The notes beneath the pieces were generated by a model, which was not told where the DNA came from, ran no database searches, and was given only the letters and a program-made list of their open reading frames with translations. 64,000 nt of DNA from Brachionus manjavacas (lineage: Eukaryota > Rotifera > Eurotatoria > Ploima > Brachionidae). Both the position numbers and the translations under genes were made by a program. Location: NCBI GenBank assembly GCA_019054805.1, contig JAHQIY010000009.1:744001-808000 (forward strand), in the 5' to 3' direction. This document shows, piece after piece, positions 2,812 to 49,640 of this stretch (the stretch's first letter is position 1; every line of letters starts with the position of its first letter).

Positions 2812-2862
2812 TTCAAATGAAGGAGCTCGATACAGATAAACAAATAAAAATAAAGAAAATAA
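2812..2862 (+). mobile_element. LINE family A, 3' tail copy (shortened)
   Basis: ATGAAGGAGCTCGATACAG followed by an AAATAAAAATAAAG run. It is a shortened form of the family A tail, lying directly before another LINE end. Confidence 0.5.
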
Positions 2863-2875
2863 AAAAAAATTGAAT

Positions 2876-2960
2876 TTTTTAACGACACGCTTTATTTCAC
2901 ATCGTATTGATAGTGGCCCATCGGATGGCCTCTGCTTAGTAATAATAATAATAATAATTA
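2876..2960 (+). mobile_element. LINE 3' end of a different family, with TAA repeat tail
   Basis: A short stretch with an imperfect hairpin (GGCCCATC / GGATGGCC, around 2914-2929) and CTCTGCTTAG, ending in seven TAA units (2939-2958). The layout of stem plus trinucleotide tail is that of a CR1/L2-type LINE 3' end. It sits immediately in front of the next LINE fragment. Confidence 0.5.
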
Positions 2961-2965
2961 TAAAA

Positions 2966-3695
2966 AATAAAGAATTCACTTATTCTATTAATGGTAAACA
3001 GTTATCAACGTCTGAAACCGAAAGAGATCTTGGAGTTATCTTCAATACAAATCTCAAATGGAAAAACCAAGTGATAGAGGCTACAAACAAAGCAAATCAA
3101 ATGTTGGGTCGCATCAGGAAATCATTCGCTCGTTTTGATTGTAAGTTATTAAGATCATTGTATTTAACTTTTGTTCGTCCTCTTTTGGAATTTGCTGTGC
3201 CTGTATGGTCTCCATTTCTTAAGTCGGATTGTGAGAATCTTGAGAGGATTCAACGCAGAGCTACGAAATTTGTTTCTTCAATTAGAAACAAACCGTATGA
3301 AAGCAGATTGAAGGCTTTAAACATTCCAAATCTGGTGGAAAGAAGAAAAAGAGGTGATCTAATTCAATTATACAAGTTCATGCATGGAATAGAATTGGTT
3401 GAAAAAAGCAACAATTTTAATGTCACCAAAATCCAAGGAAGGGGTCACTGCTTCAAATATCACAAAGAAATTTCGAGGCTCCAACATAGAGATAACTTTT
3501 TTTTCAACAGAACCGCTAACATATGGAACTCACTGCCAAATCAATTAGTTGAAGCCCCTAATGTTAACAGCTTTAAAGCAGGCATTGATTGCTGGATGAG
3601 CAGCAATCAATCACATCAGCTGTCATAGTGTGCCTTATCAGCACACTCGCTGGCTAGCCAGCTACAGTCAAAACTACTACTACTACTATTATTAA
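2966..3695 (+). mobile_element. LINE family C, reverse transcriptase C-terminal part and 3' end
   Basis: A frame open from about 2966 to 3628 encodes the part of a jockey/CR1-type reverse transcriptase beyond the palm: ERDLGVIFNTNLKWKNQV, LYLTFVRPLLEFAVPVWSP, LERIQRRATKF and LVERRKRGDLIQLYKF are typical. The catalytic palm is missing because the copy is 5'-truncated. Downstream, 3628-3695 holds GC-rich short inverted repeats (CAGCACAC; GCTGGCTAGCCAGC) and an ACTACT/ATTATT tail, which I read as the 3' end. The frame has no internal stop over about 220 codons, so the insertion may be fairly young. Confidence 0.8.
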
Positions 3696-3717: not shown

Positions 3718-4565
3718 GATCTTAATTTTTTTTTGTTTATTTAAATTTGAAATGGCTCTGAGTAATAAAACTCCTTCTGCCATTAGATAAGTAAAAAAAT
3801 AGAATTTTAAAATGAATAAAGTAAACATAAAAAATTTTTTTTTGAAAAATAAAGTACAAAAAAGAATGAAATAGTAAATTACTGTAAAAACGATAGCAAA
3901 TTTTTTTTATTTTTTTTTTATTTACACTTTTTAATGAAAGGTTGAAAATCAGAGAGAAAAACCCTTATCATCTAGCGATTCATTGAATTCATTCCATATA
4001 TTACATAATGGTGTTTTTTTCTTACAGGGTCTTGAGCTGTTAACAAAAGCACTGACATATTCTTTGATTAAATAGTAAGTGTATTTTTGAAGATAACACT
4101 ATTTTTGAGATATTTTATAAATAGTTTATTTAAACAAACTTCTATGTTATCAAGCTTTATTTCATCTAGGAAATTTATCAGAAGATCCGATGGAGTATCA
4201 TGAGGAAAATTATAACTGTACTTAATTGAAATATTATGGAGAACTTGTAGCCTAGAATGGTTGGTCTTTGAGACTAGAATAGGAATAAAGAAACTATAAT
4301 CAATAATAGGGCCAATTAATGATTTATATACATTTACCAAAGTATTGTGGTTAAGTTGCCAAGATTTTTGTGCCAGAATTTTTAAGAAGTTAATACGATC
4401 AATGCATCTTGATCTAATAAAGCCAACATGCGAGTCGAAGCTAAGGTTTTCATCGAAAGTGATGCCTAGAAATAAAGGCTTTTTTCATACGGTATTTTTT
4501 TTCCAAAAACTTTTAAAGTAAGAGATTTGTTTTTACCTGGATTTCCGGAGAAAATGGTATGACTA
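3718..4565 (-). mobile_element. LINE family B, truncated copy
   Basis: Minus-strand reverse transcriptase C-terminal region. The open part 4340-4068 reads VNVYKSLIGPIIDYSFF and SRLQVLHNISIKYSYNF. Upstream, to about 4565, are pieces such as LGITFDENLSFDSHVG, with one frame break. The 3' end on the minus strand is AATGGCAGAAGGAGTTTTAT with CAGAGCCATTT (3812-3750 region), the family B signature also found at 5791 and 49558. It lacks the RT palm. Confidence 0.78.
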
Positions 4566-19164: not shown

Positions 19165-20010
19165 ATCGAAGAGCCAAAGTTCGCTTTGAAGACTTTGTAC
19201 CAGGTGGCCCAGATATCAAATGGCCAAAACACTAATGGTACAGTAAAATGGAGTTCAAGCAGGCCTTCTTCAATATAGAACTTCACTTCAAGTCAAGATA
19301 TATTACCACTTTTGGTTACGGGTGAGTATTCTATAACTGTACTCGAATGCCTTTCGGACTTAGTACCCTACATCCAGCAAATGCTGCTGAACTCGGTACT
19401 AATATTAAAAAGTACAAAAAGTAAACATATGGGCATCTGGACGACCTCAAAATAGCGCATCCAGATGAAAGAAAGCTCCAAGTACTTCTCGGTGTGCTCA
19501 GAACAAAACTTAAGAATGCAGGGTGGGTGCTAAACACGAATAAGTCCGTGTTAAAACCTGTTAAAGGTCTAGGTTTTCTAAGAGCTCAACGGGACGGTTT
19601 AGGTATCTCTAAGCCTAAGGAAGCTTCTATCTTTGTAAAGGAAGTCGCAATATCACTTCTGATCTCTGATCCTAAGAAGAGGACCCTCATGAGAGTGAGA
19701 GGGTACTTCAATTACTACCTGGGTTTTGCGGGGAAAGTAGGGCTCATTATTAATTCTTTGCTCAGGATGACAGCTACCACCAGAAGAGATTATTGGTGCT
19801 ATATAAGCCTGATTCTTAAAATAGACGGGCTTATGTTTAGAAGCAAGCCCACAAACTAACATGTCTGGTTCGCTGATGCTAGTGAGTATCAGCTCGGGGC
19901 AGTAAATCGACCCGGGAAGGAAGTTCTCTATCGCAGCCCCCACAGAAGCTATACTGTTCAATGAAGCAGTGACATCGTTGTCATCCGGAACTGCGATCAC
20001 CCAGCTGTGC
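19165..20010 (+). mobile_element. LTR-type retroelement pol fragment (RT plus RNase H)
   Basis: G+C is well above its surroundings. In shifting frames, 19245-19500 gives FKQAFFNIELHFKSRYITTF, YNCTRMPFGLS and YGHLDDLKIAHPDERKLQV. The frame open at 19494-19859 gives KNAGWVLNTNKSVLKPVKGL, GFLRA and MRVRGYFNYYLGFAGKVG. These are RT palm and connection motifs of the LTR type (compare MPFGL, YLDDI, GFLG). From 19861 VWFADASEYQLGAVNRPGKE looks like the start of an RNase H. Stops at about 19322, 19422 and 19858 show that it is broken. I see no LTRs, gag or integrase. The exact clade is not clear; it is not a standard Ty1/copia sequence. Confidence 0.7.
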
Positions 20011-20403
20011 ATTTAAAGGAAAAAAATCAAATTAAGCTAAAATTAAGTTACTGTTGTGACAATTTTAAATTAGTATTCATTTTCAAACTAATTAGTCAAT
20101 ATTTGAAGTTTTAAAGAAAAAAATTTCTTTTCAATTAATTTCAAGGGTTGTTTTGCTATTTTTTAATTATGAGTTTAAATTTTGAGATAAGAAATTTTAT
20201 CAATTAAAATGATTCTATAAAATCACAAGAAAATTTTTTTTGTTTTTATTTGTAGTATCTATGGCTCAGACGATAAAACCTCAAATTATTAGTAATTTAA
20301 AACATCTTAAATTTTTATGATTTTATTCGAGTCAAAATAATTTTATTAAAGATAAATTTTACTGGGTTATAAATAGGCTTTTTTTCTAATTTTATTAAAA
20401 AAA

Positions 20404-22522
20404 ATGAATAAAATCTTAATTATTCAATTAATTTTTATCTACCTAAAAAATGCATTTTCTCAATCATCGACACCAAGACCATCAGGATGCTTGAGTAAAT
20501 ACGGTAACCCATTGCAAGGTAAATGCATGTCAGTTGACAATTGTACAGGCGCAGCTCTTGACGGAAATTGTGGTTCAGGCCTAATATGCTGTATACCAGA
20601 TAAAGCTCCTATAAATTTAGCTGAAAATAGCCTTATTCCTAAAGCTTTATTTTTTAAAATTGCCGGCAGAACTCCTAGAACCGAAGCTTTGTACGGCTAC
20701 TTTGTACAGTCACTAAAAAAGGCTGACGCTGATTCAAAAATTTACAAGGCAGCTGCTTTTTTGTCCCAATTGATCGGTGAAAGCAATTACTTTAAAAATC
20801 TTGAATCAAGAGTGATAGATTCTGACTTCAACATCAATCTAGGAAATAATGCGACTGGAGATGGTGCTTTTTATCAGGGCCGTGGAGCCATTTTACTCAG
20901 AGGAAAATCAAATTATTTCCTGGCAAATGCTATCAGTAAAGTTTTTTTTAAATATCTACATTAAAATCTAAATTTTTGAGTTAGATTTTGAATTTGATAT
21001 TGTTAAAAATCCGGAAAGAGTGGCTTTTCCTTCAATAGCTTTTCAAATAGCCGCATGGTTTTGGCGCCAAAATGCATTTGTAATAACAACAAATGCTCCG
21101 GCAAAGAAAGATGATCTGGGCATGCTAGCAGATGGAACATACCATAATTTCACACTATTAACCTATTCACTAACAAACAATCTTCAGAAGTTAAAAGATA
21201 GAACTGAGCTTTATGAATCAATAATTAAAAACGCAGGGTATGGAAGTATCAAAAGAGGCTTTGGAGTTGTTTGTGAGATTGGCCCCAATGCTGGCTATTC
21301 AGTTCCCATTTGTTTGGTGGGCGAAAACAAGCCCTATTGTGGATGCGAAGGACAATACGAAATGCGCTCCTGTCCTTATGGCTTTATATCAGAAAATAGA
21401 TGTCGTGGCTCCTCAATTCTAAAATGCTGTGTTGAAAAATGCACCAGTTCATTCGACATGGTTGTGCTGATGGACTCTTCGGGATCTATTGGACAACCAA
21501 ATTTTAAAAAAGAAAAAGATTTTGTTCTGGCTTTATTAGATAGAATTAAAATTGGTGAAAATGATACTCGAGTGTCCATTATTAACTACAATACTGATGT
21601 TTTTGATGTAGTCACATTTAACAGCACTCAATCTAAAGAATCCATCACCAATTCAGTAAATGGTATTCAGTACAATGGTGGCGGTACATATACTTTTAAT
21701 GCTTTAAAGAGAGCAAATGATGTTATTTTACAAGAAAATAATGGGATGAGATCGACCAAGACAGGCATACCAAAGGTTGTTGTTGTTATTACTGATGGAG
21801 AAAGTCAAGATCGGAATAGAACTCTATTTGAAGCGCAACGGATCAAAGAAAGAGGCTTCAATGTTCTTTCGGTTGGAGTAGGTAATATAGATAGGATAGA
21901 GCTGATCGGAATAGCATCAACTCCAGCTGATCAATATTTTGTGGATGATTTTGACAAAATTAAGCTTATTTTGTCCGGTCTTGCAAGGACAACATGTCAA
22001 CAACCTGCAACAGTTGAGCTGGAAGATGACATTACCTCTAAGATTGAAAAGAATGCTTACAAATATTACAAATACTCTATAGACCAAGCTCTTAATAACA
22101 CAAACGCATCATTGAATAGCTTTAGCATCGAACTGTCAATTTATGACGGCGATGTCAAGTTGTTCTATTCATTTGAAGAAGAAAATCCCAAAAGTGATGA
22201 GGAATTTTTGAACATTGACGATGCCGAACCTGATACAAACTTTATTGAAAAAAATAAAAAAGTCAAAAGAATGGTAATTAGAGAAAACAATGACGATGTA
22301 CTAAAAACAAAGTTGTACCAAATCGATCGGCCTCTGACTGGCAAAAATGACTTGTTGTATTTTAGTGTCAAAGGCTATCAGGATTCAAATGAATTCAAGG
22401 TGTTTGTTCATAGCAAAGTAATAAATGGAGCCAACTTTTTATGTATAACTAAACAATGGAACCTCTTAGTGATTTTTTCTTTTCTTTTTTTTTATTTTTT
22501 TGACAAATCTATCATTTCATAA
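20404..22522 (+). CDS. Secreted GH19 chitinase-like protein fused to a VWA domain
   Basis: Two exons (20404-20935, 20985-22522) join in frame across a 49-bp GT-AG intron to 689 codons. Residues 1-20 are a signal peptide. Residues 29-64 form a small Cys-rich module (CLSKYG..GKC..C..C..CC). Residues about 75-265 resemble a GH19 chitinase: AAFLSQLIGESNYF with Glu126 where the catalytic Glu of HESGG-type motifs lies, then GDGAFYQGRGAILLRGKSNY, and AFPSIAFQIAAWFW from exon 2. A second Cys-rich segment (about 274-330) leads to a VWA domain (about 334-515) with an intact metal site: DSSGS at 341-345, GGGTYT, and TDGES. After it comes an Asn-rich beta-type region and a hydrophobic end (FSFLFFYFF), which may anchor the protein. 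Family knowledge: GH19 cleaves chitin; VWA binds proteins through Mg. Whether the enzyme is active is unknown, since the usual HE pair reads GE here. Confidence 0.85.
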
Positions 22523-48121: not shown

Positions 48122-48159
48122 TTTTATTTAATGTATTTTTATGTTCAAATAATTTTCCT

Positions 48160-49640
48160 TTTTTAATTTATGTCTCGAGAATAATGATATTCCTGACAGT
48201 TGGAAAATTTCTAAGATAACGATGATTCCAAAAAAAACAATAAGCCATGATCCATCAAAGTACAGGCCAATAAGTGTTACCAGCTGTCTGGGTAAAATCC
48301 TAGAAAGGATAATTAAAACTAGACTCTATTCATTTTTGGAATCCAAAGGTTTCATTTGTAAAGAACAATCTGGTTTCCGACAACACCGTCGTACCTCAGA
48401 CAACCTTGTGTTCTTAAGCCAAAAAGTCTCTGAGACATTAATTAGGAAAAAAAAGTATGCTCCCTTTTCTTTGACATTTCTCAAGCCTTTGACAAGGTTT
48501 GGCATAGTGGTATCATTTATAAACTAAGTAAAACTGGAGTCCCACTGTATATTCTTGAGTGGGTAAAGAATTTCTTAAATAATAGAAAGCTTTTTATTAA
48601 ATTAAATAATTTTGAGTCTACTTGTGGAGAAATAGCAACTGGCGTCCCCCAGGGTGCCGTTATTAGCCCTCTTTTATTTTCAATTTTTATTAATGACGTA
48701 CCTAAACAGGACAAAAAAAACAATTCTTACTCTTTATTTTTTGCAGATGATTTAGTCACCTTCTTCATATTTAAGAAATATGGTAACATTTCCAAAGTTA
48801 TAAATAGCTACTTGAAAAAAGTCGAAACTTGGCTCTACAAATGGAGACTAAAAATGGCTCCCGATAAGTGCTGTTACTTAATTTTTTCTGGAAATTCTTC
48901 AAAAAATCAGGATCTAGTTCTTAATCTTCTTGGCAAGTAAATTCCATACTGTGATTGTCCAATTTTTTTAGTTATAAAATTTGATGAAAGCTTATGTTTT
49001 AACTTTCAAGTCGAGTTTATCCGGTCTAGGTGTCAAGATAGACTAAATATATCAAAATTCTGTCCCATAAATCATGGAAGCTCAATAATAAAACTTTAGT
49101 AGGGGTTTATAATGCTCTCATAGGTTCAATTATAGATTATAGTTTTTTTAGTATAAAACTAGTCTCAAAAACAAATATCCAGAGGTTACAAGTACTTCAA
49201 AATATCTCTATCAAGTCTATTTACCATCTCCCCTTTGACACCCCGTCGGAAATTTTTTATAACTTCCTTGAAGAAACTAAATTAGATCCAATAAAATTAA
49301 GACTAGAAAAACTGTTTATTAGATACTTAAAAAATTGTTTTGGTCACAAAAACGCTTTGATAACAAGCCTTTCGAAAGAGTACGTTGATGTCTTTGTTGA
49401 AAGCTCAAGAATACCTGACTTTAGAACTCCCTTGTCAATTGTCTCAAAGTATTTGCAGCAGTGGATAGTTCAAAGCTTGTAACTTTTCTAAAATGTATTT
49501 GTAATTTGCTCTTTCTGAAATTATTTAAACTCTAACACTATTTAAAAATTCTTCTAACAATGGTGAAAGGAGTTTAATTACTCAAAGCCATTTAAAAAAA
49601 AATTTTATTAAATAAACTATCAAAAAAAAAAAAAAAATAT
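48160..49640 (+). mobile_element. LINE family B, longest copy, nested in the Tigger element
   Basis: Covers the reverse transcriptase from the fingers to the end: IPDSWKISKITMIPKK, YRPISVTSCLGKILERII, EQSGFRQHRRTSDNL, FFDISQAFDKVW (motif A), GVPQGAVISPLLFSIFIND (motif B) and SLFFADDL (motif C with the catalytic Asp pair). The C-terminal part is LVGVYNALIGSIIDYSFF to about 49482. A frameshift near 48470 and a stop near 48938 inactivate it. The 3' end AATGGTGAAAGGAGTTTAAT, AAAGCCATTT and TTAAATAAAC, then an A run, finishes at about 49638. The endonuclease part is missing (5' truncation). It is the reference copy for the family B fragments elsewhere. Confidence 0.85.

Follow-up and report, generated by a model that had tools for sequence, protein, structure and literature searches.

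Endolysin-type GH19 domains joined to a VWA domain in a predicted secreted protein family of the rotifer Brachionus manjavacas, with two probably non-catalytic members

The gene at 20404-22522 (+) of the analyzed window, a stretch of 64,000 nucleotides (C9:744001-808000) of the 114-Mb genome of Brachionus manjavacas (61 contigs), encodes a protein that combines a GH19 domain with a VWA domain. It belongs to a family of five in the same genome, the others being designated C16, C1a, C1b and C2. To judge from the sequences, these proteins are probably peptidoglycan hydrolases of the endolysin type that were laterally acquired and fused to a VWA domain, two copies, the window gene and C16, having turned into non-cutting binders. 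The family is apparently an animal case of endolysin-type GH19: five genes join the domain to an adhesion domain, and intact and dead-looking copies occur side by side; because both kinds of copy coexist, the step from enzyme to receptor is directly testable in one organism. The first-pass annotation had placed the gene correctly, and the pairing of GH19 with VWA that it described is present in all five paralogs.

Domain organization and the five-member family

The protein consists, in order, of a signal peptide, a six-Cys module, the GH19 domain, a second Cys module, a VWA domain with intact MIDAS, an unnamed C-terminal domain and a hydrophobic tail. The likely signal peptide (about residues 1-20; 20404..20463, +) is judged by hydropathy alone (best 12-mer Kyte-Doolittle 2.33; 2.00 to 2.88 across the five paralogs), and the secretion predicted earlier is likely. 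The first Cys module (C29-C63; 20488..20592, +) has the spacing Cx11Cx5Cx8Cx5CC, which is common to four of the five paralogs, the last gap being x8 in C1b. Rusticalin repeats have the spacing Cx6Cx6-7Cx8Cx7CC; both patterns have six Cys ending in CC and share one gap (x8), with no overlap in the other gaps. The module resembles those repeats by spacing, not by a profile match. The GH19 domain is divided by an intron into a first part (from about residue 67; 20602..20935, +), recognized by PDB, PF00182, family-profile and PHROG matches, and a second part (to about residue 262; 20985..21238, +), placed by the family profile and the alignment and containing Thr241 at position N187 of the endolysins. 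The second Cys-rich module (C274-C330; 21272..21442, +) has eight Cys that are invariant in the five paralogs (C274, C287, C296, C298, C317, C325, C326 and C330).

The VWA domain (residues 335-504; 21455..21964, +) is certain from its match to PF00092 (E 1.9e-39; 136.1 bits, over the cut-off). The MIDAS motif of VWA domains consists of DxSxS, Thr and Asp. It is represented here by DSSGS at 341-345, Thr412 and Asp448, and D341, S343, S345, T412 and D448 are invariant in all five paralogs, which bears out the intact metal site noted before. The conserved C-terminal domain (about residues 511-650; 21983..22402, +) aligns in the five paralogs and gave no match in Pfam and a best E of 0.33 in a PDB search. 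A hydrophobic stretch at the C-terminus (22460..22501, +; best 16-mer 1.75) is a possible membrane or GPI anchor signal; by hydropathy alone a hydrophobic end is present in four of the five paralogs (best 16-mer 1.71 to 2.71), in keeping with the possible anchor suggested at first. In C1b (best 16-mer 1.09) the tail is replaced by two Cys-rich stretches (L021:3943-4868), which we take to resemble ShK repeats. Only VWA-containing families were matched in NCBIfam, and nothing in the window reached the gathering score in Rfam. Modelling the structure of residues 330-650 from a single sequence gave nothing usable (mean pLDDT 34).

The four further loci were found with the Cys-GH19-Cys part of the window protein as query. 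After splicing, the five proteins measure 648 to 735 aa, share one domain order and can be aligned up to and including the C-terminal domain. The window protein and C16 are 66.7% identical; C1a, C1b and C2 are 44 to 50% identical among themselves and 30 to 34% identical to the window/C16 pair. Comparison of the window copy with C16 by the Nei-Gojobori method gives dN/dS values of 0.216/1.78 (about 0.12) for GH19 and 0.169/1.49 for VWA, which are only rough because dS, at 1.2 to 1.8, is near saturation. On these values the dead-looking GH19 domain appears constrained to the same degree as VWA.

Affinities of the GH19 domain

The GH19 assignment is real, if weak in the window copy. PF00182 covers residues 149-205 only (E 2e-4; 21.7 bits, below the cut-off of 25.5); among the exons of the paralogs, C1a (41.3 bits), C2 (34.5) and C1b (28.7) lie above the cut-off and C16 (15.1) below it, and all five are matched at E <= 1 (best 5.3e-11). 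The family membership put forward in the first-pass annotation is supported by GH19 matches in the PDB of up to 8.8e-8; the Pfam score falls short. GH19 comprises both chitinases and endolysins that cut peptidoglycan (PMC8547705), and by sequence affinity the domain sides with the endolysins. The PDB search with residues 1-296 of the window copy gave the PWe2 endolysin (9ms7) as the best match at 8.8e-8, followed by a putative bacteriophage protein and the SPN1S endolysin (4ok7), the first named chitinase appearing at 1.6e-5. A family profile built from the five members matched 41 PDB sequences at 0.001; the PWe2 endolysin was again best (1.3e-23), the first five were endolysins (three), a putative bacteriophage protein and a putative lytic enzyme, and no entry named chitinase did better than 6.3e-13. 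PHROG 181, an endolysin family, matches all five members and is the top family for C1a (1.4e-37), for which a phage 'chitinase' family ranks fourth (7.2e-17). A phage tblastn search with C1a returned 1,352 records, the best being the Myxococcus phage Mx1 endolysin with 39.6% identity over 98% of the query.

Bacterial genomes were searched with C1a and six phage endolysins; at least 522 of 589 pattern matches were confirmed and the best 80 were taken, among which Myxococcota account for six of the ten first rows. In an earlier search of genome contigs with the Cys-GH19 alignment none of 38 pattern matches was confirmed, nor was any of 73 in viral contigs searched with the full-length alignment. 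In 91 bacterial, phage and plasmid loci, searched at E 0.01 together with flanks mostly of up to 1.5 kb (100 to 500 bases where the locus was from a phage or plasmid), neither a VWA domain nor the C-terminal domain nor the first Cys module turned up. In a tree of 96 rows the five members group as a single clade (89/85) with the endolysins; across a branch of 100/98 support lie three Streptomyces plasmid chitinases together with one chitinase-type GH19 from this genome. The tree contains four chitinase rows only, its endolysin rows were fetched with the family itself, long branches meet, composition is odd in four of the five family rows and the bootstrap is unsettled, so it speaks for the endolysin side and not for a donor.

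Position-specific residues were compared with Table 2 of PMC8547705, which gives I33, R109, G118 and L173 for endolysins and C97 and C105 for the chitinase subfamily. C97 and C105 are absent, there being no Cys at residues 64-273 of the window copy. By eye, G118, which also occurs in the chitinase row of this genome, and a Leu near 173 are present, position 33 is not Ile and position 109 is not placeable. The label 'chitinase' given to the domain at first finds no support in the PDB, family-profile, PHROG and phage searches or in the tree, and was set aside on the endolysin affinity and the missing cysteines.

A domain that cuts or binds chitin in the cuticle, jaws or eggshell is rather unlikely when endolysins rank first in every one of these searches, the tree parts the family from its four chitinase rows and the chitinase cysteines are lacking, for all that GH19 includes chitinases, that the Pfam model is named 'Chitinase class I', that PDB chitinase chains do match, at weaker scores, and that lectins with a dead chitinase-like domain, mostly from plants and chitin-binding, are known (PMC8878817). 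Roles in cuticle, trophi or eggshell, as first imagined, become less likely, since they lose their main support when the domain sides with the peptidoglycan-cutting endolysins.

The same genome has a second, chitinase-type GH19 set of four genes or gene parts, at L022 (C2:7022009), L023 (C1:8434341 and 8436431) and L127 (C5:5588953); by eye, the frames of the stretches read have no VWA. Two short GH19-like frames, L125:2126-2641 (C12) and L126:1891-2400 (C6), have a changed GRG...Q-T core and no obvious signal peptide, and the former reaches 23.9 bits in Pfam, under the cut-off. From these changes they are possibly further dead GH19 proteins.

Active-site residues

In an alignment with 80 bacterial and six phage rows, E49, E58, Q128, T130 and N187 occur in 86 of 86 rows and H48 in 80; the bacterial rows are the best 80 of at least 522, fetched with an alignment led by an intact paralog. 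The conservation of N187 and G188 is inflated because both lie inside a row-fetching pattern, outside of which E49, E58, Q128 and T130 are situated. Comparable frequencies are given for endolysins in PMC8547705: E49, E58 and T130 99% each, N187 97%, H48 93% and Q128 92%. Glu126 of the window copy (20779..20781, +) is E49, the proton donor, by the alignment and Table 1 of the same paper. Ser135 (20806..20808, +) takes the place of E58, the catalytic base, and Leu164 and Arg166 (20893..20901, +) those of Q128 and T130. Gly125 stands at H48 and Thr241 at N187, and the endolysin residues E49, N134, Y135 and R196 are kept. C16 has D, E, S, L, R and T at H48, E49, E58, Q128, T130 and N187. C1a is canonical throughout (H48, E49, E58, Q128, T130, N134, N187 and R196), C1b deviates at Q128 (His) and G188 (Lys), and C2 at H48 (Tyr), Q128 (Phe) and N187 (Ser). 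All of C1a, C1b and C2 have E49, E58 and T130, of which the window copy and C16 keep only E49.

These replacements indicate that the window copy and C16 are probably no longer catalytic. That activity depends on these Glu residues is known from published mutants: no activity could be observed for PaGH19Lys E60Q at 1 nM, though some was left in another condition (PMC12329726), and a Trichomonas GH19 E202Q mutant was inactive (PMC12612818). The view of the first-pass annotation that the domain binds rather than cleaves is borne out, as a prediction from residues, by the loss at the E58, T130, Q128 and N187 positions; GESNY, from which it was argued, is not decisive, since that motif retains the catalytic Glu126, even though catalysis is likely lost. 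Glu126 is indeed the first catalytic Glu, and Ser135 stands at the place of the second. Since C1b and C2 deviate as well, activity on peptidoglycan is safely predicted from sequence for C1a only.

An enzyme that is still active with a rearranged site, Glu134 standing in for the lost base, would account for the retention of Glu126, the invariance of Glu134 in the five paralogs and the apparent constraint on the domain. It is nevertheless quite improbable. Glu134 is one residue too early for E58, an offset that is firm because the alignment is gap-free between E49 and E58; the residues found there, at +8 from Glu126, in the six phage rows are E, T, R, R, R and K, and Thr130, Gln128 and Asn187 are gone too.

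Proposed origin and function

On the preferred reading, that of captured endolysin-type hydrolases with two non-cutting members, the GH19 part would be a bacterial or phage muramidase, most likely gained by horizontal transfer into the rotifer lineage. Characterized GH19 endolysins cut bacterial peptidoglycan (PMC8547705, PMC12329726). It would have been fused with a secreted VWA protein such as the genome still contains by itself. Two frames of this kind have VWA and most of the C-terminal domain but no GH19 in frame: a 321-aa frame on C3 with MIDAS DSSGS, and a likely secreted 334-aa frame on C23 (L039:3695-4702, C23:125797) in which the MIDAS is lost (DTATD, LTNG). Their existence suggests that such a protein became attached to a Cys-GH19-Cys unit. 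In eukaryotes, Cys-rich repeats are found next to domains transferred from bacteria or phages, often ones that lyse cell walls, according to the accessible text of PMC7379824 and PMC12855814.

C1a, with its intact residues, is expected to cut peptidoglycan. In the window copy and C16 the catalytic machinery would have been lost while the domain was retained by selection, and for this reason the domain most likely binds glycan. Its cleft, with E49, N134, Y135 and R196 kept, most likely continues to accommodate an uncut beta-1,4 amino-sugar strand, the presumed ligand being glycan strands, peptidoglycan first and chitin second. The metal-dependent VWA would bind a protein partner via its metal site and would place the binder on the cell surface or in a secretion of the gut or body wall. 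More tentatively, intact copies may release muropeptides and dead copies may act as peptidoglycan lectins that signal contact via VWA, so that a captured phage-type muramidase would have given rise to a surface or secreted pattern-recognition family. If true, this would be a form of bacterial recognition unlike PGRPs or known animal lysozymes.

Comparison with known systems

The closest known proteins are the GH19 endolysins (subfamily ELYS of PMC8547705; 9ms7, 4ok7 and 9eoi, the last being PaGH19Lys), with which the family shares sequence affinity, the GRG core and the first catalytic Glu. In contrast to them it is eukaryotic, spliced, predicted to be secreted and fused to Cys modules and VWA, and the window copy has no E58, Q128, T130 or N187. 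PMC8547705 (2021) describes endolysin-type GH19 as having stayed within phages and the bacteria they infect. PaGH19Lys does not cut chitin (PMC12329726, as far as its available text goes), and a myxobacterial endolysin-like GH19 is a lysozyme (PMC9098779).

The GH19 muramidases of the protist Trichomonas are also eukaryotic, with a signal peptide and a bacterial origin; those tested, which were laterally acquired, cut peptidoglycan and not chitin (PMC12612818, 2025). Compared by their description in the available part of that paper, they occur with SH3b or no known domain, never with VWA, and keep the catalytic Glu. Rusticalin-like proteins, Cys-rich-repeat proteins and the placozoan PLys (PMC6339383, PMC7379824, PMC12855814) are likewise secreted and carry Cys-rich repeats beside a transferred lytic domain, but the catalytic domains are others (MD peptidase, GH25, peptidase M15, GH23); 'von Willebrand' is absent from the main texts of these three papers. 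Plants, too, have GH19 chitinase-like proteins and lectins that are catalytically dead (CHIT 3 and 4, PMC8547705) and keep GH19 after loss of a catalytic Glu. These proteins belong to the chitinase subfamily, and the Glu is deleted or changed to Lys or Ala, probably the first one by Table 1 of that paper, whereas it is the second that is replaced, by Ser, in the window copy. A search of open papers turned up, among those listed, neither a GH19-VWA protein nor an animal endolysin-type GH19. Such proteins could have escaped a survey of rotifer lectins because, in its available text, lectins with dead chitinase-like domains were omitted as uncommon in animals (PMC8878817).

Gene structure and genomic setting

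Two open frames, 20377-20964 and 20972-22522, are spliced into 689 codons by a 49-bp intron (20936..20984, +) with GT-AG borders (GTAAAG...GAGTTAG). Twenty-one GT/GC..AG choices keep the frame open; 689 aa result from the one at 20936-20984. An intron of 53 bp occurs at identical place and phase in C16; in C1a, C1b and C2 the GH19 domain is interrupted elsewhere, immediately ahead of the GRG motif, by an intron of 55-62 bp, to which C1b adds another inside VWA. The 49-bp intron is thus supported by paralog introns, and the single spliced gene of the first-pass annotation is upheld by the open frame and the intron of C16. That two adjacent genes, or a pseudogene, were misread as a fusion is very improbable, for although the intron is assumed from sequence, the second exon joins half of GH19 to VWA in a single open frame, dN/dS is low, and domain order, open frames and GT-AG introns recur in five of five copies, on which ground a gene-boundary artefact was also rejected.

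Neighboring genes in the window encode chromo shadow and PUB domain proteins, a 2-oxoacid dehydrogenase acyltransferase and a PALP enzyme, and the G+C content is 23 to 29%. These neighbors, the G+C content and the introns in all five copies argue strongly against bacterial contamination. PMC1925144 found no trans-spliced leader in Brachionus plicatilis. Frames resembling pieces of retrotransposon reverse transcriptase were noted by eye in the window at 2840-3628 (+), 4068-4484 (-), 19425-19859 (+) and 48153-49482 (+), the third of which ends about 0.5 kb upstream of the gene.
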